Source: Caldilineaceae bacterium
GTDB lineage: Bacteria > Chloroflexota > Anaerolineae > Caldilineales > Caldilineaceae
DNA length: 30,063 bases
Assembly: GCA_028819675.1 (NCBI GenBank)
Contig: JAPPKT010000487.1
Location: 1 to 30,063 of the forward strand
Direction of reading: 5' to 3'
Positions 121-22,706 of the stretch are shown one piece after another. A program made the translations under genes and the position numbers. The notes beneath the pieces were generated by a model. It saw nothing but the letters and a program-made list of their open reading frames with translations, was not told the origin of the DNA and ran no database searches. Position 1 is the stretch's first letter. The number at the start of each line of letters is the position of its first letter.

Positions 121-1266
121 TTACCGTTCGACCGTCAGAGCGTAGTGCCCTTCAATGTAAGGGTAACGTTCGGCAACCCCTTCTGCCAATTCGATTCCCA
201 GGCCGGGGTTGTCCGGTAGATGCAGATGGCCGCCGTTCATTGCCGGCGGCTTCGCGGCAATATCCCACTGCAGCGGCCCTTGAATCTGGCAAACCTCCAG
301 AATCTCCAGGTTGGGTAAGGCGGCAACCGCGTGCGCGTGCGCCATCGCCATCAATCCATTATGCCAGGAGTGGGGATAGAGTTTGAGGCCGTGATGCGCC
401 GCCAGCTCCGCGATGCGTACCAGTTCTGTCAGGCCGCAGACACCCGCGTCAGGCTGCACGATATCATAGGCCCGCTTTTCAATATACGGGCGAAACTGCT
501 CCAGAGTCGTGAAGCTCTCGCCGCCGGTTACAGGCATTTCCACTGCCGCGGCGAGTGCGGCATAGCCGTCGATTTCGCTCCAGGGTATCGGCTCCTCCAG
601 CCAGGCGAACTCCAATCGGTCCAGTTCCCTGGCAATGGGCAGCGCCTCCTCCAGCGTAAGCCGGCAGTTACCGTCCAGCGCCAGCTTCATTCGTCCCGCC
701 ACCGCCTGATGCAGCTCTCGCACCAAACCGAGAAAGCGGTCAACGGTCACGCCGTCCCACTCCCAGTCCGTGCCGATGCGGAACTTCATCACCGGGAATC
801 CCTGTTCTACGTATCCCAGTGCCTCCTCGATCAACTGTTCGGGCCGGTCCCGCCAGTCATAGCGGCATCCGCTCGAGGCATACATCGGTACTGACGAGGC
901 CGGGCTGTCGCTCAGCAACTCGCTGACCCGCTTGCCCGCCGCTTTCCCCCGCAGATCCCACAGGGCGCAGTCGATGCCGGCGACGGCCGCGTCATGAGCG
1001 CGGTCCCTGCCATTCGGATGCGGCGGCGTGGCCTTGTCTGTCGGGTCCTTGCCGATGAGAGTCGGCGCCAGCCAGTCGACCCATTCGGCGATACGCGGCG
1101 GCACCCCGTATGCGCTCGCCTCCCCGATGCCAACCAGTCCTTCATCGATATGAACCCGGACGACCGCACAATCAGCCTTTACCGTGCGATAGCTGGCAGT
1201 GATCCACTGCCGTTCCGGTTCGTGCATGCGCGAAAGACATACAGTGTCGAGATCTGTAATCTTCAT
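121..1266 (-). CDS. Mandelate racemase/muconate lactonizing enzyme family protein (enolase superfamily)
   Basis: A 381-residue protein of normal length for this family. These enzymes use a divalent metal to abstract the proton alpha to a carboxylate; many members dehydrate or racemise sugar acids. An N-terminal capping domain (about residues 1-120) is followed by a TIM barrel. The metal ligands are visible as D198 (LALDGN), E224 (WLEEP) and E250 (TGGES), with the same spacing as in mandelate racemase. The second-strand catalytic motif is K161-x-R163, and H299 sits in PHSWHNG. The barrel therefore appears catalytically intact and of the mandelate racemase-like subgroup. The start has a strong AGGGGA site lying just after the TAA of the upstream gene, 11 bases away. 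It is in an operon with ABC sugar-uptake genes, so a sugar-acid dehydratase role is plausible; the exact substrate is unknown. Confidence 0.9.
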   Translation of the reverse strand: MKITDLDTVCLSRMHEPERQWITASYRTVKADCAVVRVHIDEGLVGIGEASAYGVPPRIAEWVDWLAPTLIGKDPTDKATPPHPNGRDRAHDAAVAGIDCALWDLRGKAAGKRVSELLSDSPASSVPMYASSGCRYDWRDRPEQLIEEALGYVEQGFPVMKFRIGTDWEWDGVTVDRFLGLVRELHQAVAGRMKLALDGNCRLTLEEALPIARELDRLEFAWLEEPIPWSEIDGYAALAAAVEMPVTGGESFTTLEQFRPYIEKRAYDIVQPDAGVCGLTELVRIAELAAHHGLKLYPHSWHNGLMAMAHAHAVAALPNLEILEVCQIQGPLQWDIAAKPPAMNGGHLHLPDNPGLGIELAEGVAERYPYIEGHYALTVER

Positions 1267-1277
1267 TAAGTTCCCCT

Positions 1278-3239
1278 TTAACAGGGCTGCTTGTACGAAG
1301 GCTCGTTGACGTATCGAGCCGTCGCTATATCCAGTTCGATCCGCGTCGCCGGCGGGAGCTCGACCTGCAGGTAGACGTCGTTAACGTCCTCCTTTACGGT
1401 TGAATGCTCGACTTCAGGCGACTGATATGCTGGCGGCCGGCCCGGGTAACTGCTTGTCCTCTTCGTATAGCGGACTACCTCGAAACGGTGTTCGCCGAAG
1501 CTGCCCGCCTGCAATATCACCATACGCGACTCGTACGGGTTCAGGTTGACCAGTTCCACCACCGTGCGCTCCGCCTCCAGCCTCGTTACGAGCGCGGCCG
1601 TGTCAGGAGGCAGGCCCGGCCGCTTGAGGACTGCGTCGTAGTACCGCAGCCGGCAGTGGAGTAGCCCGCCGTTATAGATGATCTGGGGCGCGCCCAGCGT
1701 AAGCTGAACCAGCGCCTCTGTGATCACGGGGTTGAGCTGTTGCCAGTGGTGGATGTGCACCTGCGTCAGGTCCTCCACGTCTTCTCGGATCAACGCCAGT
1801 CGACGGCAGACCTGTCCGTAGGTTGAGGCCAGTATCTGCTCAGGATAGTCGGGGTTATCACCGGCAAGGAACCTTAGCCAGGGCTGTTCGTGGCCGTTGT
1901 CCTCCTTGTTGCGGAAACCCTGAACGCGGCGCCAGTCGTACTTCTCAACCCGTCGCAGCGCCTCGATCCGCCCCCAGTCGGCGGGATCCATCGTCATGTT
2001 CCACACAGCCGTGGGGTAGACCGGCGACATCGGCTGATAGTCGAACCAGCCTTCGTCGTTGTGCCGGTAGGGGACGACGAATATCCCATCCTCTTCGTCG
2101 TCCAACTGGTCCACCCAGTGGCTTCGCAGGCTCATTTCCCCAGCGCTGGGACTTCGCATCTCGCCCAAATCCCAGATGGCGTCGTACTGATCGTTGGCCA
2201 GCTGCAGGTATCCCTTGTCACCGGTGAGCAGAAAGGCGTTGCCGCCGCTGACGGTCGCGGCCATGCCAATATTGTAGTAACCGTGGGGCCAGCTCCAGCC
2301 GTAAAGACCGCCGTACCAGCGTCCATCCATGTACTCGCCGACCTCTCCCGACAGCCCGACGTTGTCCGGCAGCAGGCCGTCCGGTTTCCGCCGGTCAACC
2401 CGTCCGGACTGCTCTGCCGCGGGAGAGTTGCTCGCGGCCCGCTCCCGCCAGGCGTCAAAATACTCGACGATCCAGCGCCGGTACTTCTCATCGCCGGTGA
2501 GCAGGAAGGCATTCGCAATCAGACTCGTGACCATCAGATTCCCGGCTACGTCTCCCTTGCCCATGCGCTCCTGCATCGCCTCCCCCATGCGACGCGCCAG
2601 GGCCGTGTCCTTCAGATCGTCGTATTCATGGACGCCCTCGATGTCGGTGAATGGGAGGCCATACGTGCGCATGGACGCGCTCCAACCGTAGCTCGGCTCC
2701 GGGCCGTCCGTGAAGCCCCAGCGCGGCCCGCCGCTGCCGTTGTGCGGCGCCCTGATCAGCTTGCGTTCAGGATCGTAGTTGGGCGCATCGGGGTTCTCGT
2801 TCAGATACAGGCCGGCAAATCGTACTGCGCGCTGGCGATTGCGCTCATTTGTCGGGTCGGCCAGACAGAGAAAGTAGAAATAGATGTAGCTCTCGCTCTG
2901 GTGGAACTGATCATAGCCCCGTTCATACTCGTCCATCACCGGCCCGAGCTCTTCCAGCTGTCTCGTGATGGCGTCCCACTGGCGCTGCCCCTGCGTGAGC
3001 AGGTGATCGCCGCCCCCGAGCAGATAGTAGAGGGGCCAGTTGTAGGAGCTCTCGTAAAAATCATCGGCGCCGTCGCGTGAGTCGCTCCACTTGTCGGCCC
3101 ATATCAGCGTCCCGTCGGGCCTTGTGTACTTCTCCAAGAAGGGTTCTACGGACCGGTCCATCAGATCAAAAAGCGCCCGCTCCATCACGGCCCAGGTGGG
3201 CGGTGCATCAAGAGGGACGCTGGCAGTGAGTGTAAGCAC
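1278..3239 (-). CDS. Unrecognised 653-residue protein, probably an alpha/alpha-toroid fold
   Basis: I do not recognise a named family. The frame is open from 3362, but the best start is the GTG at 3239: GAGAGG lies 8 bases upstream and no good site precedes the longer start. The longer version would also swallow a perfect hairpin at 3321-3360. No signal peptide or membrane segment is evident, so it is probably cytoplasmic. It is rich in Trp, Tyr and Asp. A motif LLTGD followed by a hydrophobic helix occurs twice (AFLLTGDEKYRRW and AFLLTGDKGYLQL), with a weaker copy near the N-terminus. That spacing of paired helices is typical of (alpha/alpha) toroids such as glycoside hydrolases, lyases or epimerases. 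The C-terminal 150 residues look beta-rich, as in many glycan-active toroids. Position between a sugar-binding protein and an enolase-superfamily enzyme suggests a carbohydrate-processing role, which is inference. Confidence 0.8.
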   Translation of the reverse strand: MLTLTASVPLDAPPTWAVMERALFDLMDRSVEPFLEKYTRPDGTLIWADKWSDSRDGADDFYESSYNWPLYYLLGGGDHLLTQGQRQWDAITRQLEELGPVMDEYERGYDQFHQSESYIYFYFLCLADPTNERNRQRAVRFAGLYLNENPDAPNYDPERKLIRAPHNGSGGPRWGFTDGPEPSYGWSASMRTYGLPFTDIEGVHEYDDLKDTALARRMGEAMQERMGKGDVAGNLMVTSLIANAFLLTGDEKYRRWIVEYFDAWRERAASNSPAAEQSGRVDRRKPDGLLPDNVGLSGEVGEYMDGRWYGGLYGWSWPHGYYNIGMAATVSGGNAFLLTGDKGYLQLANDQYDAIWDLGEMRSPSAGEMSLRSHWVDQLDDEEDGIFVVPYRHNDEGWFDYQPMSPVYPTAVWNMTMDPADWGRIEALRRVEKYDWRRVQGFRNKEDNGHEQPWLRFLAGDNPDYPEQILASTYGQVCRRLALIREDVEDLTQVHIHHWQQLNPVITEALVQLTLGAPQIIYNGGLLHCRLRYYDAVLKRPGLPPDTAALVTRLEAERTVVELVNLNPYESRMVILQAGSFGEHRFEVVRYTKRTSSYPGRPPAYQSPEVEHSTVKEDVNDVYLQVELPPATRIELDIATARYVNEPSYKQPC

Positions 3240-3320
3240 GAGGCTCACCTCTCTTGTGTGTGGAATTGTGTGTATTCGGTTGCCGCCGGCACGAACTGAA
3301 CTGTCTACGGGTAAGCGTTC

Positions 3321-3360
3321 GCCGCTGCGCCAAGGCCCTGCGGGAGGCCGGCGCAGCGGC
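3321..3360 (-). other. Intercistronic hairpin with an 11-bp perfect stem
   Basis: The arms at 3321-3331 (GCCGCTGCGCC) and 3350-3360 (GGCGCAGCGGC) are perfect reverse complements, with an 18-base interior that can itself pair GGCC with GGCC. It lies between the substrate-binding protein stop (3411) and the GTG start of the next gene (3239). No T-run follows on the minus strand, so it is more likely an mRNA-stabilising or processing hairpin, or an attenuator, than an intrinsic terminator. Such hairpins often protect abundant binding-protein messages in ABC transporter operons. Confidence 0.6.
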
Positions 3361-3410
3361 ACAACGCTATCAGCGCATCTGCAATACCTTCAGCTGTGTT
3401 GCGCTTGCCT

Positions 3411-10195: not shown

Positions 10196-10251
10196 ATAGA
10201 ACAGCGGATTTCGTACTACCAACCCATATCCACTGCAGTTTGAGGACTAAA

Positions 10252-10995
10252 ATGACTCGGATTGCCATGTGGTGTGCGCCGCGCACCATTTCAACGGCAC
10301 TCATGCGTGCCTGGGAAAATCGCCCGGACACGATCGTGATTGACGAGCCGTTTTATGCTCATTACCTGCACGTCACCGGCATCGACCATCCAGCGAGTGA
10401 AGAAATCATCGCCAGTTATGAGACCGACTGGCGCCTCGTTGCTCGCACGCTAACCGAAGACCATCTGCCCGAAGGCGCGACGATCTGGTACCAGAAGCAT
10501 ATGGCCCATCACATGTTGGACCATATCGAGCTGGACTGGCTGGACAAGCTGACCAACTGCTTTCTGATCCGGTCGCCGGTTGAGGTCATCACCTCTTATA
10601 TCAAGGTGCGGGCCCAGCCCACGCTCTTGGATCTCGGTTTCCCGCAACTGCTGCGGCTGTTTGAGGCCGTCCGCCGCAACTCAGGCTCGATTCCTCCGGT
10701 CATAGACAGTCAGGACGTGTTGGAGGACCCCAGCGGCACTCTCAAGCTGTTATGTAAAGCAGTGTCAGTGCCCTTCTCCGAGCGGATGCTCTCCTGGCCG
10801 CCGGGCCGCCGCGGCAGCGACGGCGTCTGGGCGCCCTATTGGTACGCAGCCGTGGAAAGATCAACCGGCTTCGCTCCCTACCGTCCCAAGAACGAAGCCG
10901 TACCCCCGCAACTACAGGACCTTCTCGCCGAGGCACAGGAAGCCTACCAGGAACTTTACCGTTTCCGCCTTACGACGAGGGATCGCAGTCAGTGA
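10252..10995 (+). CDS. Sulfotransferase-like protein, aminotransferase-associated type
   Basis: A 247-residue protein of the P-loop-like sulfotransferase fold. The N-terminal WCAPRTISTALMRAWENR matches the phosphosulfate-binding loop of a distinctive subfamily (consensus like W-x-GPRxxSTALM). KHMAHHM near residue 83 and LIRSPVEVITSY near residue 105 correspond to its conserved second motif and the 3'-phosphate-binding Arg-Ser element. Known members of this subfamily occur beside, or fused to, branched-chain aminotransferase-like proteins, and such a gene follows here after 50 bases. I chose the ATG at 10252 because TGAGGA lies just upstream; a TTG four codons earlier is weaker. It is presumably cytoplasmic and PAPS-binding, but neither the acceptor nor real sulfotransfer is established. 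Confidence 0.8.
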   Translation: MTRIAMWCAPRTISTALMRAWENRPDTIVIDEPFYAHYLHVTGIDHPASEEIIASYETDWRLVARTLTEDHLPEGATIWYQKHMAHHMLDHIELDWLDKLTNCFLIRSPVEVITSYIKVRAQPTLLDLGFPQLLRLFEAVRRNSGSIPPVIDSQDVLEDPSGTLKLLCKAVSVPFSERMLSWPPGRRGSDGVWAPYWYAAVERSTGFAPYRPKNEAVPPQLQDLLAEAQEAYQELYRFRLTTRDRSQ

Positions 10996-11045: not shown

Positions 11046-11951
11046 ATGCTGCAGAGATTCTACGAAGCCAATCGCCATCTTCTGGTCAACATCAACGGGC
11101 AACTCGTTCACAGGGACGAGGCCGGAGTCAGCCCTTTCGACTCCTCCGTGCAAAATGGCGACGCCGTCTGGGAGGGCCTGCGACTCTACGACGGGCGTAT
11201 CTTCAAACTGGAGGAGCATCTGGACCGGCTCCAGGACGGCGCAAAGGCCCTTGCCTACGAAGGCGTTCCTTCGAATGAGGAGATCGTGGATCAGGTGCGG
11301 CGAACGCTTAAAGCCAATGAAATGCAGGACAACGTCCACGTTCGCCTTACACTTACGCGCGGCGTCAAGTACACAAGCGGTATGGATCCCCGCATCAATA
11401 CGAGCGGCACAACGCTGATCGTCCTGGCCGAACACAAACCGCCGGTCTACGACCGCGGCGGCATCCGCCTGATCACCTCCGGCATCCGTCGCATTCCCCC
11501 GGACTGTCTGGACCAGAACATCCACTCCTGCAATATGCTCAACTCAATACTGGCCAAGATCCAGGCCAACACCGCCGGCGTCGACGATGCGGTGATGCTG
11601 GATACGAACGGTTTTGTCGCCGAAACCAATGCCACCCATCTCTTCCTGGTCAAACGCGGTATCGTTGCGACCTCCCACACCCACTCCTGCCCCGAAGGAA
11701 TCACCCGCGCCACTGTGCTGGACCTGTGCCGGACACATCGAATTCTCGCAGAAGTGCGCGATATCTCCCTGCCCGAGCTATATCGGGCCGATGAGCTGTT
11801 CTGTACCGGCACGATGGGCGAATTAACACCTGTGACCGAGTTGGACGGACGCACAATTGGGGCAGGAGACGGCGGGCCAGTCACCAAACGACTGAGTCAA
11901 TTATACGCCGAACTGACCCGTAGCTCAGGTTATCCCATTCTAGTCGACTGA
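11046..11951 (+). CDS. Class IV aminotransferase-fold protein with the PLP lysine replaced by histidine
   Basis: A 301-residue protein, the usual length for the branched-chain/D-amino acid transaminase/aminodeoxychorismate lyase fold (PLP class IV). Family landmarks are VSPFDSSVQNGDAVWEGLR near residue 30, the LDRL segment near 60, NGFVAETNATHLFLV near 190 and CTGTMGELTPV near 255. The segment that normally carries the Schiff-base lysine reads NIHSCNMLNSILAKIQA. Aligned with the corresponding IKSLNLLYNVMTKQRA-type segment of D-amino acid transaminases, the lysine position is H160. K171 further on is the usual second, non-catalytic lysine. Normal transamination should therefore be impaired or absent. 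A GGAG site precedes the ATG, and it probably forms a pair with the sulfotransferase-like gene. Function unknown: possibly a PLP or ligand sensor, or different chemistry. Confidence 0.85.
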   Translation: MLQRFYEANRHLLVNINGQLVHRDEAGVSPFDSSVQNGDAVWEGLRLYDGRIFKLEEHLDRLQDGAKALAYEGVPSNEEIVDQVRRTLKANEMQDNVHVRLTLTRGVKYTSGMDPRINTSGTTLIVLAEHKPPVYDRGGIRLITSGIRRIPPDCLDQNIHSCNMLNSILAKIQANTAGVDDAVMLDTNGFVAETNATHLFLVKRGIVATSHTHSCPEGITRATVLDLCRTHRILAEVRDISLPELYRADELFCTGTMGELTPVTELDGRTIGAGDGGPVTKRLSQLYAELTRSSGYPILVD

Positions 11952-15132: not shown

Positions 15133-15435
15133 CGGTTTCGGATGGAGACGGATGAATCGGCGAAGGTCAGATGCCGGGGTGGAACAGCAGATGTGCTGCG
15201 CCCAATCGCCTTCTCGCGCTGACTCGCATCCGGAACAGAAAGCGGCGGGCAAGTCCGTCAACGCCTTAAGCAACTGTGCGCCGACCTGACCTTTAGCACA
15301 GGCTTCCCCATTCTGGTTGGCTGCTTCGACTATCAGGTTAGACAAGGTGGATTAAACGGGCTGCAAGAGGTGGTTGACGATTGGTTAAGAACCGAGTACC
15401 CGTCTCGCGTGCGCGGCGAACAGTATATTCGCTAA
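15133..15435 (+). pseudogene. Decayed 3' fragment of a class IV aminotransferase gene
   Basis: One frame ending at TAA 15433-15435 reads, after about 15223, ASGTESGGQVRQRL, then KQLCADLTFSTGFPILVG. This matches the C-terminus of the intact gene at 11046-11951 (GDGGPVTKRLSQLYAELTRSSGYPILVD). By hand count 57 of 81 bases (15241-15321 against 11868-11948) and 16 of 27 residues agree. Upstream in the same frame, TDESAKVRCRGGTADVLRPI resembles the family's ADELFCTGTMGELTPV segment, but a TGA at 15220-15222 interrupts it. The 5' two thirds of the gene are absent. The tail continues for 37 residues beyond the intact homologue (ending RVRGEQYIR) and is of unknown origin. Confidence 0.65.
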
Positions 15436-15463: not shown

Positions 15464-16720
15464 TCACTCTTCGCTTCCGGTAAGAAGCTCTACGGTGTGA
15501 TAAATGCGCAAGTGCTTCCCAAGCCGCCGCAGGTGGTTGTCGATCTGGGTCATGCAGCCGATGTTGCCGGTGACCACGGCCTGCGCGCCGGTTCCGAGAA
15601 TGGCTTCGGCCTTGCGCTGGCCCAGCTGGGCGGCAATCTCCGGCTGTTCGATATTATAGCTCCCCGCCGACCCACAGCAGATCTCCCCCTCGGGAATCGG
15701 AACAAGAGTAAGATTCTGTATCGCCCCCAGCAGACGGCGCGGCGCGTCCGTCACGCCCTGCGCGTGCGCAAGATGGCAGGCGTCGTGATACGCGACCGTC
15801 ATCGGCGCAGGCAATGCAGGCGGCGGCTCGATGCCGAGTGCGTCCAGGAAGACCGTCAAATCCTGCACCTTGTCGGCGAACTCTCGCGCCGCCTGCTCTT
15901 CTGCCTCGCCTGCAAACAGCAAAGGGTACTCGTGCATGCCGGAACCACAACCAGCCGCGTTGGTCACCACTGCATCGAGGTCGTCCAGGTTGAACGCGTC
16001 GAAGTTGCGTCGGGCCAGCGCCCGCGCCTGGTCTGCCGCGCCGGTATGCATCGAAAGTGCGCCGCAACAAACTTGGCGCGGCGGGATGACCACTTCTACA
16101 CCATTGCTGGTCAAAACCTCGACGGTGGCGCTGTTGATCCCAGGGGCTAGCACTTGTTGGGCGCAGCCGCTCAGCAGCGCAACTCGCGCCCGCTGCTCCC
16201 CCCGAGCCGGCGCCAGTCGCGGCAGAGCGACGCGCGGCGGCAACCGTTCGGGCAGCAGATCAAGCATCGTTTGCAGCGCCGCGGGCAGGAACGGTTTGAG
16301 AAATTTCGTATAGCGTCCCAACATTGCTGCGGCGCGGAATCGTCCGGGGTAGGGGAGCGTCTGGTTGGTCAGCGTGCGAGACAATTCCTCCATTGCGGAA
16401 CGGCTACGCCTTTTTTCCGTCATCTCCCGAAAAGGTGTGAGCAGTTCCCCGTACTCGACCCCAGAAGGGCACGCCGTGACGCAGGCCAGGCAGCCCAGGC
16501 ATCGGTCTACGTGCGGCAGCACCTCCTCCTGGGACAGCTCACCTTCCAGCGCGCCCTTCATCAGAATGATGCGCCCGCGCGGCGAGTCCATCTCCTCCCC
16601 CAACGCCAGGTATGTCGGGCAGGCCGGCAGACAGAAGCCGCAATGGACGCAGTTGGCGACGGCTTCCGCCATTGACGGGGCTTGGGGACCGAGAGAGTCT
16701 ACCGGTATCGAGTGGCGCAT
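15464..16720 (-). CDS. glcF: Glycolate oxidase iron-sulfur subunit GlcF
   Basis: A 418-residue protein, standard for GlcF, the subunit that passes electrons from the flavin subunits GlcD/GlcE to the quinone pool during oxidation of glycolate to glyoxylate at the inner membrane face. Two 4Fe-4S motifs are complete: C24, C27, C30, C34 ([12 protein letters not shown]) and C74, C77, C80, C84 ([12 protein letters not shown]). Two CCG-type cysteine domains follow, with [11 protein letters not shown] near residue 220 and [11 protein letters not shown]...[10 protein letters not shown] near 310-355. It lies 19 bases after the quinone oxidoreductase gene and ends the long minus-strand array. Homologous lactate-oxidase LutA or glycerol-3-phosphate GlpC proteins share the motifs, but glcD and glcE upstream support GlcF. 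Confidence 0.92.
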
Positions 16721-16739: not shown

Positions 16740-17708
16740 TTAAGTCGTTAACAGAACCTTGCCCTTGGTCTGGCGCGCTTCCAGGTATGTATGTGCGCCC
16801 TCGGCATCGTCGAGAGGGAATGTGCGGTCGATGCGGATCTCCAGCTTACCCTCCGCGATCCAGCTGAAAATGTCATTGGCGCGGCCCTCCAACTCCGATC
16901 GCGTGAGCATATGGGAGGCCAGCGTCGGTCGCGTCAGGAAGAGCGAGCCCTTCTGGTTGAGTATCTGCGGGTCGATTGAGGGAACAACGCCGCTCGCCTG
17001 GCCGAACAGTACCATATAGCCGCGCGGCTTCAGGCAGTCCAGGCTCTTGTCGAAAGTAGCGATGCCGACCGAATCGTACACGACCTCGACACCTTCGCCG
17101 CCGGTCAGATCGCGCACCGCTTCCGCAAAGTCTACTTCTGTGTAGCGGATCGTAGCATCTGCACCGGCCGCCTTGGCGATGCGCGCCTTCTCCTCGGTGG
17201 AAACCGTTCCGAGCACACGCGCGCCGCGCAGTTTGGCGATCTGTACCAGCAGAGCCCCTGTGCCGCCGGCCGCGGCATGCACCAGGCAGGTATCGCCCGG
17301 CTTGAGCGGATAGGTGCTGCACGCGAGGTAGTGGGCGGTCAGCCCCTGGATCATCGCCGCCGCCCCGTGCTGGGCATCTACGCCATCCGGACGGTGGACC
17401 AGATTTTTCGAGGGAACGATGGCGTACTCGGCATAGGATCCAGTCGACATCCCGTAAGCCACGGCATCGCCGACCGTTGCTTCGGTTACGCCCTCGCCCA
17501 CGGCATCGACAACCCCCGCGCCTTCGACTCCGGGGGTGAAGGGCAGCGGCAACGGATACCAACCACGCCGGTGATAGGTGTCGATAAAGTTGACGCCTGC
17601 CACCTCGATCTTTACGCGCGCTTCCCCCGCACCCGGCTCAGGTGTCGGCACGTCAACGCTCTGCAACACATTGGGGTCGCCGACCTCTTGCACTCGAATC
17701 GCCCTCAT
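16740..17708 (-). CDS. NADPH:quinone oxidoreductase, zinc-free MDR family (zeta-crystallin type)
   Basis: A 322-residue medium-chain dehydrogenase/reductase of the quinone oxidoreductase class, which transfers electrons from NADPH to quinones or reduces activated alkenes. The N-terminal GroES-like domain includes [20 protein letters not shown], the characteristic quinone reductase signature, and lacks the structural and catalytic zinc cysteines of alcohol dehydrogenases. The Rossmann domain carries [19 protein letters not shown] near residue 145, the NADPH loop of this class, and [12 protein letters not shown] near 205. The start has a strong GAGGAGA site. It sits between glcE and glcF, an unusual place, and may recycle quinone or simply share the transcript. 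Substrate is not deducible. Confidence 0.9.
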
Positions 17709-17749: not shown

Positions 17750-18925
17750 TTACCACGGTTCAAACTTCCCCTCCGGGTCCAGAGCCGCCGCAATCCGTCG
17801 CAGAAACGCGTTTTGCAGCGGTCTACCCAGCAATGGGCCTTTATGGTCTCTGGCGTCGCCTTCGTCGCGGTTTGCCCCTTCACGTCGCGCGCGGCCGATC
17901 AGCTGTATACCTTGCAGGCCCAGTTCCTGCAAGAGGCCGTGGAGGTCTCGGGATGAATCCTGCTCAACACCTGCTTGTGCCGTTACGTCTGGCCAGCCCA
18001 ACCAGAGCAGATTTCCGCCGACGCTATAGCGCCGCGTCGCGGTATGGGAGCCCCTAAGCGCTTCCTCCACCGCCGGGATCCGTTGCGGCGTCAATGGGAT
18101 CCGAACCAGCCCCATTCCTTCCGTAAGCCATCTCATGGAACGCACCGTTTGCCAGAGGCCCTCTTCTTCTTCCTGGTCCTGGTACAAGGAGAGACTGCGC
18201 ATTTGCCCCGTGCCTGCGGACACAACCGTCCGCAACGCCTGCGCCCGCTCCTGCAGAACGGTCAGCAGTCCGCCAATGCGCACCCAGAGGGTCCAACCCT
18301 GCCCCTCCGGCGCAAAGTCTACCGCGTGCAGGTCGATGGCGCTGCGCGTCACCGCATCGAGAGCGCCTAGCAGATCGGAAAGCCCGTCAAATTCCGCTGC
18401 CACGGTCGCGTACGCCGAGGGCTGGGGGAAGACTTTGAAGGTCAGTTCGGTCAATATGCCCAATCGTCCCAGACTGCCGACAAACAGTTTGGGGAAGTCG
18501 AACCCAGCCGCGTTCTTCACCACCGCGCCCCCGCCCCGCACCTCCTGACCCTTCCCGTCGACAAAGCGAATGCCGATCAGAAAGTCACGAATGCCGCCGT
18601 AGCGGTAGCGTCCCGGCCCGCTCAGGCCGGCGGCGACCGTTCCCCCCAGCGTTGCTCCGCGTTCGGCCAGTGGCGGATCGAAGGGTAGATACTGGCCCTT
18701 CTCCGCCAGCAGCGCCGTCATCTCTGCTAAGGGTGTACCGGCGCGGGCGGTAAAGGTATACTCTTCGGGCTGATAGTCGATGACCCCTTTCAGCGCGGAC
18801 AGGTCAAGACATTCCGCGTCCACTTGGCAGTCTCGCTGCGACAGAGCTGGTTTGGAGCCGCCTCCTCGGACGCGCACGCTCTTCGCCCCCTGTACTGCCT
18901 CCTGGATTTCAGAAACGCTGTTCAT
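17750..18925 (-). CDS. glcE: Glycolate oxidase FAD-binding subunit GlcE
   Basis: A 391-residue FAD-binding PCMH-type protein, close to the usual GlcE length of about 350. The FAD-binding region shows YQPEEYTFTARAGTPLAEM near residue 55, ERGATLGGTVAAGLSGPGRY near 88-107 and VVKNAAGFDFPKLFVGSLGRLG near 135-155, the last being a reliable GlcE signature. The C-terminal half is the more variable substrate/subunit interface. It works with GlcD and GlcF as the membrane-associated glycolate dehydrogenase. The ATG at 18925 has little ribosome-binding match. It is separated from glcD by the lipoprotein sugar dehydrogenase gene, and the quinone oxidoreductase follows after 41 bases. Confidence 0.9.
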   Translation of the reverse strand: MNSVSEIQEAVQGAKSVRVRGGGSKPALSQRDCQVDAECLDLSALKGVIDYQPEEYTFTARAGTPLAEMTALLAEKGQYLPFDPPLAERGATLGGTVAAGLSGPGRYRYGGIRDFLIGIRFVDGKGQEVRGGGAVVKNAAGFDFPKLFVGSLGRLGILTELTFKVFPQPSAYATVAAEFDGLSDLLGALDAVTRSAIDLHAVDFAPEGQGWTLWVRIGGLLTVLQERAQALRTVVSAGTGQMRSLSLYQDQEEEEGLWQTVRSMRWLTEGMGLVRIPLTPQRIPAVEEALRGSHTATRRYSVGGNLLWLGWPDVTAQAGVEQDSSRDLHGLLQELGLQGIQLIGRARREGANRDEGDARDHKGPLLGRPLQNAFLRRIAAALDPEGKFEPW

Positions 18926-19063: not shown

Positions 19064-21196
19064 CTATTCCCCGATAATCAGGTACAGAGCGCCATCCTGA
19101 TAGCCGGTTACGTACAAATTGCCCTCTTCGTCCTCGCCCACGCCGCTGACAGGGACTTTGGCGTTTACGGGCAGTGTACTCAGCCAACCATCATAGATGC
19201 TTCCATTTGAATCGGCTTTCGACCGTTTCAACCCCCAGACCCTGCCACTGCAGAAGTCGCCGTAGAAGAATACGCCGTCCAATGCAGGATAGTCATTGCC
19301 GCGATAAACAGCGCCCCCCACGATCGCACAGGAGTACACGTGATCGTACTCGACAACAGGCGAAATCAAGCCCTGCGCGCTGCACGACACCGACTCGAAA
19401 CACCTGCTCCCTTCTTTGATGTTCCAGCCGTAGTTTTCACCACCGCGGCTTGCTGCAGGCTGAAAGTTCACCTCTTCGTGCTTTATGTGGCCCGCATCCG
19501 GAATGTACAGATCGCCGGTCAACTTGTCAAAGGCAAAGCCCCATGGATTGCGCAGCCCCAGAGCCCAAATTTCGCCGCGGTGACCGTCGACCTCTGCAAA
19601 TGGGTTGTCCGGCGGGATGCCGTACGGCCTGACGTCCGATTCTACGTCAATGCGCAAGATCTTGCCCAGCAGCGTGCCCGGATCCTGCGCACGATTCTCA
19701 ACATCCTTAAGCGTAGGGTGGCCGCCGTCACCGCTGCCAATGTAAAGGAACCCGTCAGGACCGAAAACAATGCGGCCGCCATTGTGGACCTGGTCCGGCT
19801 GGGCGATCAGGAGCACAACCTCCTCGCTCTCAGGGTCGGCACGGTCAGGATTGGCAGTCGTCCTGAAGCGGCTGATGACCGTGTCCCCGGCTCTGTCCGT
19901 ATAACTTGCATAAAAGTAATCTTTGTCGACATAGCCCGGCGGAAATGCCACGTTGAGCAAGCCCCGCTCTCCACAGCATCGAACCCGACTTGAAATGTCG
20001 AGGAAAGGTGTCTCTTCGACTACGCCGTCCTTGACGACACGAATCTGACCCTCCTGCTCGACGACGAACAGGCGCCCAGACCCATCGCCGGCATGCGTGA
20101 CCTGCACAGGAAGCGCAAGACCTTCGGCAGTCTTGATCAAATCGAACTTCGGCAGCTCTGTATCTCCCACCGGGTCATCGGATCGTGAACCAAAAACCCT
20201 TATCTCTCGCCACGCCACCCAACTCGGACTGTCAAGCGTCAGTATCTGCACCTCGCTGAGGCTGCGCGGCGGAACGATGGGGACCTCCAGCGTCTGTCCG
20301 TCTTCCGTGTGCTGGCTGTCGAACCGCCAATACATCGTCCGCGTGCTGGAACCGTTCCCCAGCCAGATCTCGTGCGTCGTCGGGCCAGCAGGCGACTGTG
20401 CCATCTCCAGTTCCAGCTTGTCGACAACGTATAGTTCGTCGAAGGAGACCGAATACCACTGCGGCGCAGGAAGACCTGCAGTCCAAAAAGTATCCGGCTC
20501 CCCGTCAATCGCCTGGCCGGCCAGCTCCTCCCCTGCCGAGGCGAACGCAGATCCAACCGGTGCTACATTCTCCTCCACCGGCGTCGACGGTTCAGCTGCA
20601 GTTCGCTCGGTCCCGCCGGCCTCGATCTCTCCACTTGCCTCTCCCACCGGTTCGGCAGCCGGCGACCCAAAAACCCTTACCTCTCGCCACCCGACCCAAC
20701 TGGGACTATCGAGAGTAACTACTAACACTTCATTTAACCTGCGCGGAGGCTCAACGGCAATCTCAACTGTCTGGCCATCCTCCGTATGTATGTCAAACAG
20801 CCTCTCCTGGAGGACGCGTGTGTCAGAACCGCTCCCTAGCCAGACTTCATGCGTGGTTGGGCCGGCGGGCAGTTGCGTCACGACCAGCTCGATTCTGTCA
20901 ACCAGGTAGAAGCTATCGAATGCTATCGAAAACCACTGCGGCGCCAACTGCTGCGAATTCCAGATCGATTCCAGATCCCCGTCGATCGCCAACTGCGCAA
21001 ACTGGCTTCTTTCAAAGGCGTCCGCAGTTCCCAGCATGGCAACGTTTTCGCTGGCCGGAGTCGGCGCAACATTCGGCTCGGGTTGCGGTTCAACAGTAGA
21101 TTCGACGCCTGGTTGAAGAAGCTCTTCACTCGGATTGCAAGCGCCGATAAAGGAAAGGACGAGCAGGGCAGTGGCAAAGAGTACAGTTCTTCTCAC
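19064..21196 (-). CDS. Lipoprotein PQQ-type sugar dehydrogenase with two N-terminal discoidin-like domains
   Basis: A 710-residue secreted protein. Residues 1-20 form a lipoprotein signal peptide with lipobox IGAC (C20). Two F5/8 type C-like (discoidin) domains follow at about residues 50-180 and 210-340. Each contains AIDG...W, THE(V/I)WLG(S/N)GS, HTEDGQT(V/L)E and TLDSPSWV(G/A)WRE(V/I)RVFGS, so they are a clear internal duplication. The C-terminal 360 residues are a glucose/sorbosone dehydrogenase-type six-bladed propeller. It shows DQVHNGGRIVFGPDG with the presumed catalytic His, IGSGDGGHPTLKD, GLRNPWGFAFD and a final GNLYVTGYQDGALYLI. Members oxidise aldoses with PQQ outside the cytoplasm; the discoidin domains should bind glycans and anchor it to polymer. 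It lies inside the glcD-glcE pair. PQQ dependence is inferred. Confidence 0.88.
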   Translation of the reverse strand: MRRTVLFATALLVLSFIGACNPSEELLQPGVESTVEPQPEPNVAPTPASENVAMLGTADAFERSQFAQLAIDGDLESIWNSQQLAPQWFSIAFDSFYLVDRIELVVTQLPAGPTTHEVWLGSGSDTRVLQERLFDIHTEDGQTVEIAVEPPRRLNEVLVVTLDSPSWVGWREVRVFGSPAAEPVGEASGEIEAGGTERTAAEPSTPVEENVAPVGSAFASAGEELAGQAIDGEPDTFWTAGLPAPQWYSVSFDELYVVDKLELEMAQSPAGPTTHEIWLGNGSSTRTMYWRFDSQHTEDGQTLEVPIVPPRSLSEVQILTLDSPSWVAWREIRVFGSRSDDPVGDTELPKFDLIKTAEGLALPVQVTHAGDGSGRLFVVEQEGQIRVVKDGVVEETPFLDISSRVRCCGERGLLNVAFPPGYVDKDYFYASYTDRAGDTVISRFRTTANPDRADPESEEVVLLIAQPDQVHNGGRIVFGPDGFLYIGSGDGGHPTLKDVENRAQDPGTLLGKILRIDVESDVRPYGIPPDNPFAEVDGHRGEIWALGLRNPWGFAFDKLTGDLYIPDAGHIKHEEVNFQPAASRGGENYGWNIKEGSRCFESVSCSAQGLISPVVEYDHVYSCAIVGGAVYRGNDYPALDGVFFYGDFCSGRVWGLKRSKADSNGSIYDGWLSTLPVNAKVPVSGVGEDEEGNLYVTGYQDGALYLIIGE

Positions 21197-21260: not shown

Positions 21261-22706
21261 TTACTCCCTGAAGATGACGCCCGCCTTCTCCAGCGGATGG
21301 GGCCCAACGTGCGTCAACGACTCGGCCTCGCCCGCCGGCAGCATCTTGCCGCGATTGGCCAGAGACTTGCTGTCAACGCTGCGGCGCACATCCTCCATCG
21401 CCTGCATCTCCAGCGGACCATACATTCTGGGAAGGAAGGCGCGCTTTTCCATGCCGACTCCGTGCTCGCCCGTGATGGAGCCCCCTAGGTCGACGCACAA
21501 CTCGAGGATTTCTCCGGCAAGTTCCTCCGCCCGTTCCAGTGCGCCCTCCTCGCGGCCGTCGAACAGGATCAGCGGGTGCAGGTTGCCGTCACCGGCGTGG
21601 AATACGTTGGCCACGTCGATGCCGTAGCTGGTGCTGAGCCGGTCGATCTCCGCCAGCGCGTCACCCAACCGGCTGCGGGGTACGACCCCATCCTGCACGA
21701 TATAGTCTGGGGCCAGTCGACCCACCGCCGAGAAAGCGGCTTTGCGCCCCTTCCAGATGCGGGCGCGTTCGTCAGCGGTCTGCGCCATGCGTACCTCCAA
21801 AGGCGCGGTCTCTTCGATCAGCTGCATCAATTGGGCGAATTCGGCCTCCACCGCGCTCTCTTCTCCCTCCAACTCGACAATCAGCAGCGCCGGCGCCGTC
21901 GGATAGCCCGCCTTGGCGCCTACCTCCGCCGCCTTGATCGCCAGCGCGTCCATGATCTCGATCGCGCCCGGCAGCAGTCCGGAGGCAACCACCGCAGTCA
22001 CCGCATCCCCCGCCGCATGTAACGAATCGTATGCCGCCAGCACGGTGCGATAGGTCTGCGGGATCGGTAGTAATCGCAATGTTATCTCCAGCGCGACGCC
22101 GAACAGCCCTTCACTACCCACAAAGAAGCCCGGCAGATCGGGGCCTATGCCTTCCAGGCTTTCGCCGCCCAGCTCGACGACCTCGCCGTCAGGCAGCGCA
22201 ACCGTCATCCCCAAAACATGGTTGCTGGTCATTCCGTACTTCAGGCAGTGCGCACCCCCGGAGTTGAATGCTACATTGCCGCCGATTGTGCAGATCGACT
22301 GGCTGGAAGGATCGGGCGCATAGTAGAGACCGTAAGGCTTTGCCGCCTCGGAGACCTTGAGATTGATCACGCCTGGCTCTACCACGGCGATGCGGTCCGC
22401 CGCGTCCAGCCGCAGGATTCGGTCGAGGCGATTCAGGGCGATGACGATGCCATCGGCGATAGGCAGCGAGCCGCCCGATAGACTGGTGCCGCTCCCCCGC
22501 GCTACGAACGGTACGCTGTACCCGTGGCAGAGACGGATCGTTTCGATTACCTCCTCGCGATTTTGAGGAATAACCACCGCCGCCGCTCTCTGCTGAAATG
22601 CCGTCAGCGCGTCCGATTCGTACGCCATCAGCTGGGCCGGACGGGTCAGGAGGCGGTCGGCATCATACAAACGCGACAGCGTCTCGATCAGTGGATGTAC
22701 GTTCAT
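21261..22706 (-). CDS. glcD: Glycolate oxidase FAD-linked subunit GlcD
   Basis: A 481-residue protein of the GlcD family (usual length about 480-500), the catalytic flavoprotein that oxidises glycolate or a similar 2-hydroxy acid. The FAD-binding PCMH domain is seen in [21 protein letters not shown] around residue 70 and in [21 protein letters not shown] around residue 142. The C-terminal FAD-oxidase domain has [21 protein letters not shown] near 375 and [17 protein letters not shown] near 415, containing the conserved catalytic histidines. Its ATG overlaps the TGA of the upstream XdhC-like gene by ATGA, so the two are translationally coupled. D-lactate or 2-hydroxyglutarate dehydrogenases are related, but glcE and glcF in the same array support glycolate. 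Confidence 0.93.

Follow-up and report, generated by a model that had tools for sequence, protein, structure and literature searches.

Can a protein that has the fold of a class IV aminotransferase, but not its Schiff-base lysine, still be a vitamin B6 enzyme, and what would it be doing beside a sulfotransferase? The question is raised by a gene on contig JAPPKT010000487.1 of a Caldilineaceae bacterium (assembly GCA_028819675.1; "the window" here means the whole stretch analysed, 30,063 nucleotides). In active transaminases that lysine is treated as obligatory (PMC9309667), and a deep clade, to which the window protein belongs, has fixed histidine or asparagine instead. The explanation that we favour, though tentatively, is that the protein is a functional enzyme that would use non-covalently held pyridoxal phosphate (PLP) or pyridoxamine phosphate (PMP), with His160 as acid/base, and would act in sequence with the sulfotransferase.

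The histidine-bearing branch of the clade (H branch) was sampled through the 120 top-ranked proteins of a 5.8-billion-entry database and, from 84,980 genomes, the 80 top-ranked loci; these two sets overlap and were picked by similarity (the loci at 66–99% identity). The asparagine-bearing branch (N branch) was sampled by searching with a profile of seven plasmid proteins of the N type (120 proteins among the matches listed), and 11 lysine-bearing rows served for comparison. The gene and the residues that matter are as follows.

11046–11951, plus strand: lysine-less class IV aminotransferase homologue of the H branch, 301 amino acids and a stop codon (open reading frame, Aminotran_4 match, model, homologues)
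11523–11525, plus strand: codon of His160 (CAC), at the Schiff-base lysine position; H in 200/200 homologues
11226–11228, plus strand: Arg61, retained; R in 200/200 of the H set and in 11/11 lysine-bearing rows
11622–11624, plus strand: Glu193, kept in the H branch (E in 200/200) and lost in the N branch (S in 92/120, T in 28/120)
11337–11339, plus strand: His98, clade-specific; H in 200/200 of the H set and 120/120 of the N set, 0/11 lysine-bearing rows
11367–11369, plus strand: Lys108, a clade-specific invariant; K in 200/200 of the H set and 120/120 of the N set, 0/10 lysine-bearing rows with a letter here
11436–11438, plus strand: Lys131, invariant in the H branch; K in 200/200 of the H set and 92/120 of the N set, 1/11 lysine-bearing rows

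The protein scores above the gathering cut-off of the class IV aminotransferase profile PF01063, and its predicted fold agrees; it falls below the cut-off of all 19 NCBIfam families listed (branched-chain aminotransferase, D-amino acid transaminase, aminodeoxychorismate lyase and others; best score 258.9 against 363). The first-pass annotation, made from the letters alone, had read a lysine-to-histidine replacement at position 160, and both the codon and the alignment with class IV enzymes bear this out: where fold type IV PLP-dependent transaminases have the Schiff-base lysine, the window protein and all 200 homologues have histidine. The other cofactor residues that were checked are in place, Arg61, Glu193 and the loop residue Thr256 each being present in 200/200. 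Arg61 corresponds to the PLP-phosphate-binding arginine of class IV enzymes. Glu193 corresponds to the acid that contacts the pyridine nitrogen of PLP (PMC9309667).

Invariant throughout the H set (n = 200) are H160, N163, E193, R61, R100, R105, H98, K108, E129, K131, D156, N195, K171 and T256. The N set (n = 120) has Asn at the lysine site and Ser at position 163 in every member, and shares H98, R100, R105, K108, E129, D156, N195 and T256 in 120/120 and R61 in 119. The lysine-type rows all carry Glu at position 193, and in the solved branched-chain enzyme 5mqz the residue aligned with His98 is Tyr. Since His98 and Lys108 were gained by the clade while the H branch kept the ring acid and the phosphate arginine, the residue changes look like repurposing rather than decay. 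Lys108 lies in the loop that follows strand 97–105 of the predicted model, a lower-confidence part of it (block means of 76 and 64).

The histidine was present in 120/120 of the best proteins and 80/80 of the best loci, so that no close homologue had the lysine that the first-pass annotation had named as refuting its view; the conservation that it proposed to check is seen in every homologue of these two sets. Their overlap and their selection by similarity called for a look at deeper homologues too. His also stands at the site in L085 and L086, loci of Chloroflexota with 60% identity. From 148 Planctomycetota genomes, 61 matched at an E-value of 1e-50 or better and 30 loci were read: His stands at the site in all of the best 25 (L119–L143, 55–68% identity, with at least one repeat, the genome of L119 being that of L046), and the other five comprise one Asn-type protein (L144), three Lys-type proteins (L145, L147, L148) and one very divergent His protein (L146). 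The plasmid homologue L118 (36.5% identity) has Lys. Record titles assign the His family to Chloroflexota, Planctomycetota and Gemmatimonadota; Acidobacteria, Actinomycetota and Proteobacteria each appear as the label of one metagenome-assembled genome (MAG). Both His codons are in use (CAC in 53 of the 80 loci, CAT in 27). The gene had been thought to be maintained, and this is upheld by ratios of nonsynonymous to synonymous substitution (dN/dS) of 0.04–0.12 against seven relatives, in four of which dS exceeds 1 and is near saturation. Separate lysine-bearing class IV paralogues are present in all three H-bearing genomes whose paralogues were read (G012, G019, G021).

The divergent planctomycete homologue (L146, positions 1219–2145, minus strand) has H160 and H98 and lacks R61 and K108, with a branch length of 2.67, and no sulfotransferase match was found in its locus. 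We set it aside as a clade member for the two missing residues and the very long branch; it may be an offshoot that has diverged still further.

Among solved structures the nearest are two from the N branch: 7z79, from Variovorax paradoxus and titled "aminotransferase-like protein", and 9j32, the N174K mutant of it. Whoever deposited them had evidently seen that Asn occupies the position of the lysine. In two trees (45 and 54 rows), drawn with a midpoint root and with long-branch warnings for L093, P0158 and L146, all lysine-less rows form one group apart from all lysine rows (support 100/98 and 100/99), and this group splits into the N branch (100/99 in both trees) and the H branch (100/98 and 100/99). 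This monophyly, the missing lysine and the presence of both His98 and Lys108 place the window protein with 7z79 in the lysine-less clade. That the clade lost the lysine once is the simplest reading and not a proof, because the root was drawn at the midpoint. The window protein differs from 7z79 in having His160 for Asn, Glu193 for Ser and Asn163 for Ser, and the plasmid relatives of 7z79 adjoin an amino-acid transporter in 7/9 annotated loci with no sulfotransferase annotated. The loss of lysine, which the first-pass annotation had taken as a sign of a pseudo-transaminase or of new chemistry, is therefore real but not without precedent: the sister branch of 7z79 has Asn, and the fold type I enzymes E1, ColD and SpnQ have His. 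Our literature searches, whose coverage was partial so that a paper may exist, returned none on the lysine-less family or on 7z79 and 9j32, nor was the His branch with its sulfotransferase partner found in the literature searched. In databases some members of both lysine-less branches are called branched-chain amino acid aminotransferase, D-amino acid aminotransferase or the like, names that find no support in a protein without the lysine.

The lysine-bearing relatives 5mqz, 5e25 and 5cm0 (archaeal-type branched-chain aminotransferases) and IlvE have the fold in common with the window protein, at up to about 40% identity. 5mqz also shares R61, R100, E193 and the phosphate loops, but all four have the Schiff-base lysine where the window protein has His, and 5mqz lacks H98 and K108.

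The second element of the question lies immediately upstream.

10240–10995, plus strand: sulfotransferase (PF19798, Sulfotransfer_5), ending 50 nucleotides upstream of the aminotransferase homologue; the listed start is TTG, with an in-frame ATG at 10252

Its PF19798 score is 185.5 bits against a cut-off of 23.2, and P14, R15, S18, T19, R111, P113 and S119 are invariant in 28 sequences (PR..ST and R.P.....S), motifs which we take to be the 5'-phosphosulfate loop and the 3'-phosphate motif. The predicted model (mean predicted local distance difference test 92.3) has its closest folds among sulfotransferases that depend on 3'-phosphoadenosine-5'-phosphosulfate (PAPS): 4gox, 5wrj and 4gbm, effectively tied at 14.0, 13.9 and 13.6. 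By sequence, the 60 PDB matches listed were mostly antibodies, the relevant ones being 4gbm and 4gox with weak E-values of 0.041 and 0.065, and a search of the phage collection gave no match. From its motifs and fold, then, the partner is predicted to be a PAPS-dependent sulfotransferase. The sulfotransferase domains of CurM (curacin) and of olefin synthase (4gbm, 4gox) are only 15–16% identical to it and sit in another protein context, and their fold rank is tied with that of tyrosylprotein sulfotransferases. A stretch of a Dolichospermum plasmid (L111) has a 42% sulfotransferase homologue beside cysC (adenylyl-sulfate kinase), a neighbour consistent with the use of PAPS; the aminotransferase is neither annotated nor matched there.

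That homologues sit beside a sulfotransferase-like gene, a check which the first-pass annotation had proposed, proved true for most: in 65 of the 80 loci it is on the same strand and no more than 199 nucleotides upstream, and in one more the distance is 1,921 nucleotides. Among the 14 loci where it is absent, L022 shows only 58 nucleotides of upstream sequence and L073 1,912, and 10 of the other 12 genomes have a homologue elsewhere. In planctomycetes it is upstream in 21 of the 25 His loci (20 within 90 nucleotides, one at 892); none was found upstream in L125, L128, L135 or L136. Fusions point the same way. Among 39 long proteins with a sulfotransferase part, 16 have an aminotransferase domain with a readable site: nine are sulfotransferase-first with His and seven aminotransferase-first with Asn, although some come from truncated or single-contig open reading frames and individual ones may be prediction artefacts. 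As separate genes, an N-type gene is followed by a sulfotransferase gene in L087 (Chloroflexota) and L144 (planctomycete). Opposite orders of genes and domains in the two branches are hard to explain unless the two proteins are functionally linked, and the pairing suggests a two-protein chemistry rather than a dead enzyme. The Arabidopsis loci At3g05190 and At5g27410 are putative sulfotransferase-aminotransferase fusions, and no paper naming either was found in the literature searched.

Why do we favour a non-covalent PLP/PMP enzyme? The H branch has replaced the lysine with His yet keeps the other cofactor contacts that were checked, and this combination is what such an enzyme would be expected to have. 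Beyond the computed features of the family (a conserved His, the clade, the cofactor residues that were retained, the low dN/dS and the genetic link to the sulfotransferase), we infer that a cofactor is bound, what His160 does, the order of steps and any leaving-group chemistry. Instead of a Schiff base, Arg61, Glu193 and the phosphate loops at 218–221 and 255–256 would hold the pyridoxal or pyridoxamine phosphate, and His160 would act as general acid/base at C4' of the cofactor, as in the lysine-to-histidine dehydrases E1, ColD and SpnQ. The sulfotransferase would sulfate either the substrate (possibly so that a hydroxyl becomes a leaving group and can be eliminated) or the product. The aminotransferase lysine of E1, ColD and SpnQ is replaced by a His that takes a proton from PMP while a hydroxyl is expelled, and ColD is described as regenerating PMP through transamination with glutamate (PMC8987622). 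These sugar 3-dehydrases have another fold (type I) and nucleotide-sugar substrates, so that any likeness would be convergence: the His at the site agrees, the fold differs, and the window protein would at most work like them. If His160 is the base, a second B6 fold would have come to the E1/ColD solution on its own. Because of the sulfotransferase partner and the fusions, the function can be tested with two purified proteins.

A more specific version, which we think improbable, is a lysine-free, His-based PMP/PLP enzyme, present in several phyla, that would act on amino or keto acids and eliminate a sulfate installed by its dedicated, sometimes fused sulfotransferase. The idea of sulfate as leaving group comes from the sulfotransferase chemistry of curacin and olefin synthases and from the chloride-channel neighbours of N-type operons. 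If it is right, the family would be a fold type IV counterpart of E1/ColD, with sulfation-activated B6 elimination chemistry.

Several points weigh against the favoured explanation. A review in the Journal of Biological Chemistry calls the Schiff-base lysine absolutely conserved in catalytically active aminotransferases (PMC9309667). The leaving-group idea is the bolder step, drawn from a tied fold ranking and analogy. The N branch shares H98 and K108 yet has lost E193, so that the common function of the clade may not need PLP chemistry. Nor is the partner obligatory for the clade: nine annotated plasmid loci of the N branch, picked by hand among the best hits, show no annotated sulfotransferase within about 6 kb, a tblastn search of seven N-type plasmid loci gave none, and in the plasmid collection only five records have a detectable sulfotransferase homologue against 328 with an aminotransferase match. 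The N branch can thus apparently work without a linked sulfotransferase. On the H side, two of the 12 H-bearing genomes noted above (L066, L071) have no detectable sulfotransferase homologue at all. Finally, a search of 83 loci (the 80 and three intermediates, with a simple open reading frame caller) gave no neighbour besides the sulfotransferase that points to a substrate, though the search was crude and weak neighbours could be missed.

The main rival, unlikely in our view but the best of the alternatives, is a pseudo-enzyme: a protein without its own chemistry that binds a cofactor or ligand and regulates the sulfotransferase, or scaffolds it, as a subunit. Such a subunit would fit the absence of lysine from both branches as sampled (0/200 and 0/120), the tight genetic link and the fusions, as well as the loss of E193 from the N branch; it would have no need of the invariant active-site residues (H160, E193, R61, H98, R100, R105, K108, T256), and the N-branch genes beside amino-acid transporters have no sulfotransferase nearby for it to serve. 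We hold it less probable still that the site was repurposed without a cofactor, with H98, K108, R100, R105 and H160 binding or transforming a small anionic substrate without PLP. Such a site would fit the gain of H98 and K108, fixed across both branches, and the absence of Lys and Glu alike from the N branch, but the H branch retains every PLP contact checked (R61, E193, T256) save the lysine.

A relocated lysine has poorer prospects than either. Here K108 or K131 would form the Schiff base and the protein would be an ordinary transaminase whose catalytic residue has shifted position; K108, found in all 320 H and N proteins and in none of the 10 lettered lysine-bearing rows, is the obvious candidate, and K131 is invariant in the H branch. 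Relocation, however, does not need an invariant H160, K108 is common to the N branch, which lost the PLP-ring acid, and it lies in the lower-confidence loop of the model. An artefact or decaying paralogue, which a decayed copy of the C-terminus downstream might suggest, is already refuted for the gene itself by its intact frame, its low dN/dS, its homologues in MAGs of several phyla and its use of two His codons. The decayed copy is a separate feature:

15181–15318, plus strand: decayed fragment of a duplicate aminotransferase C-terminus (46% over residues 255–300, with one in-frame stop)

It lies about 3.2 kb downstream of the gene, and G001, G012 and G014 have matches at a similar distance.

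An amino-acid ATP-binding cassette (ABC) transporter lies within about 6 kb in six of the nine N-type plasmid loci, and a branched-chain one in another. A chloride channel gene occurs in five of the nine, in one case a short one, and a pyrroline-5-carboxylate reductase gene in three. Plasmids of Agrobacterium, Paracoccus and Thioclava (L112, L116, L117) share a recurrent set of ABC transporter, Asn-type aminotransferase, chloride channel (ClC) and pyrroline-5-carboxylate reductase-like gene, which suggests that some amino acid is taken up and broken down, perhaps releasing an anion. In the 83-locus search, the largest clusters, taken as the aminotransferase and the sulfotransferase, hold 65 and 52 of the 83 loci and are incomplete because the caller sometimes kept opposite-strand frames. 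Clusters in 32 and 16 loci (L059_3034_4980, L033_3996_5594) look like such frames and were rejected as neighbours, and other recurrent clusters, mainly from Chloroflexota loci among L025–L080 or from close kin of the window, were not used.

Elsewhere in the window, a 694-amino-acid open reading frame (1278–3362, minus strand) has no Pfam match at 0.001; an ABC transporter set and a gene of the enolase superfamily lie close to it. Three minus-strand genes at 15464–16720, 17750–18925 and 21261–22706 look like a glycolate oxidase set of an iron-sulfur and two flavin adenine dinucleotide subunits, a tentative naming, and between them lie a zinc-dehydrogenase-like gene (16740–17708) and a sugar-dehydrogenase-like gene (19064–21196).
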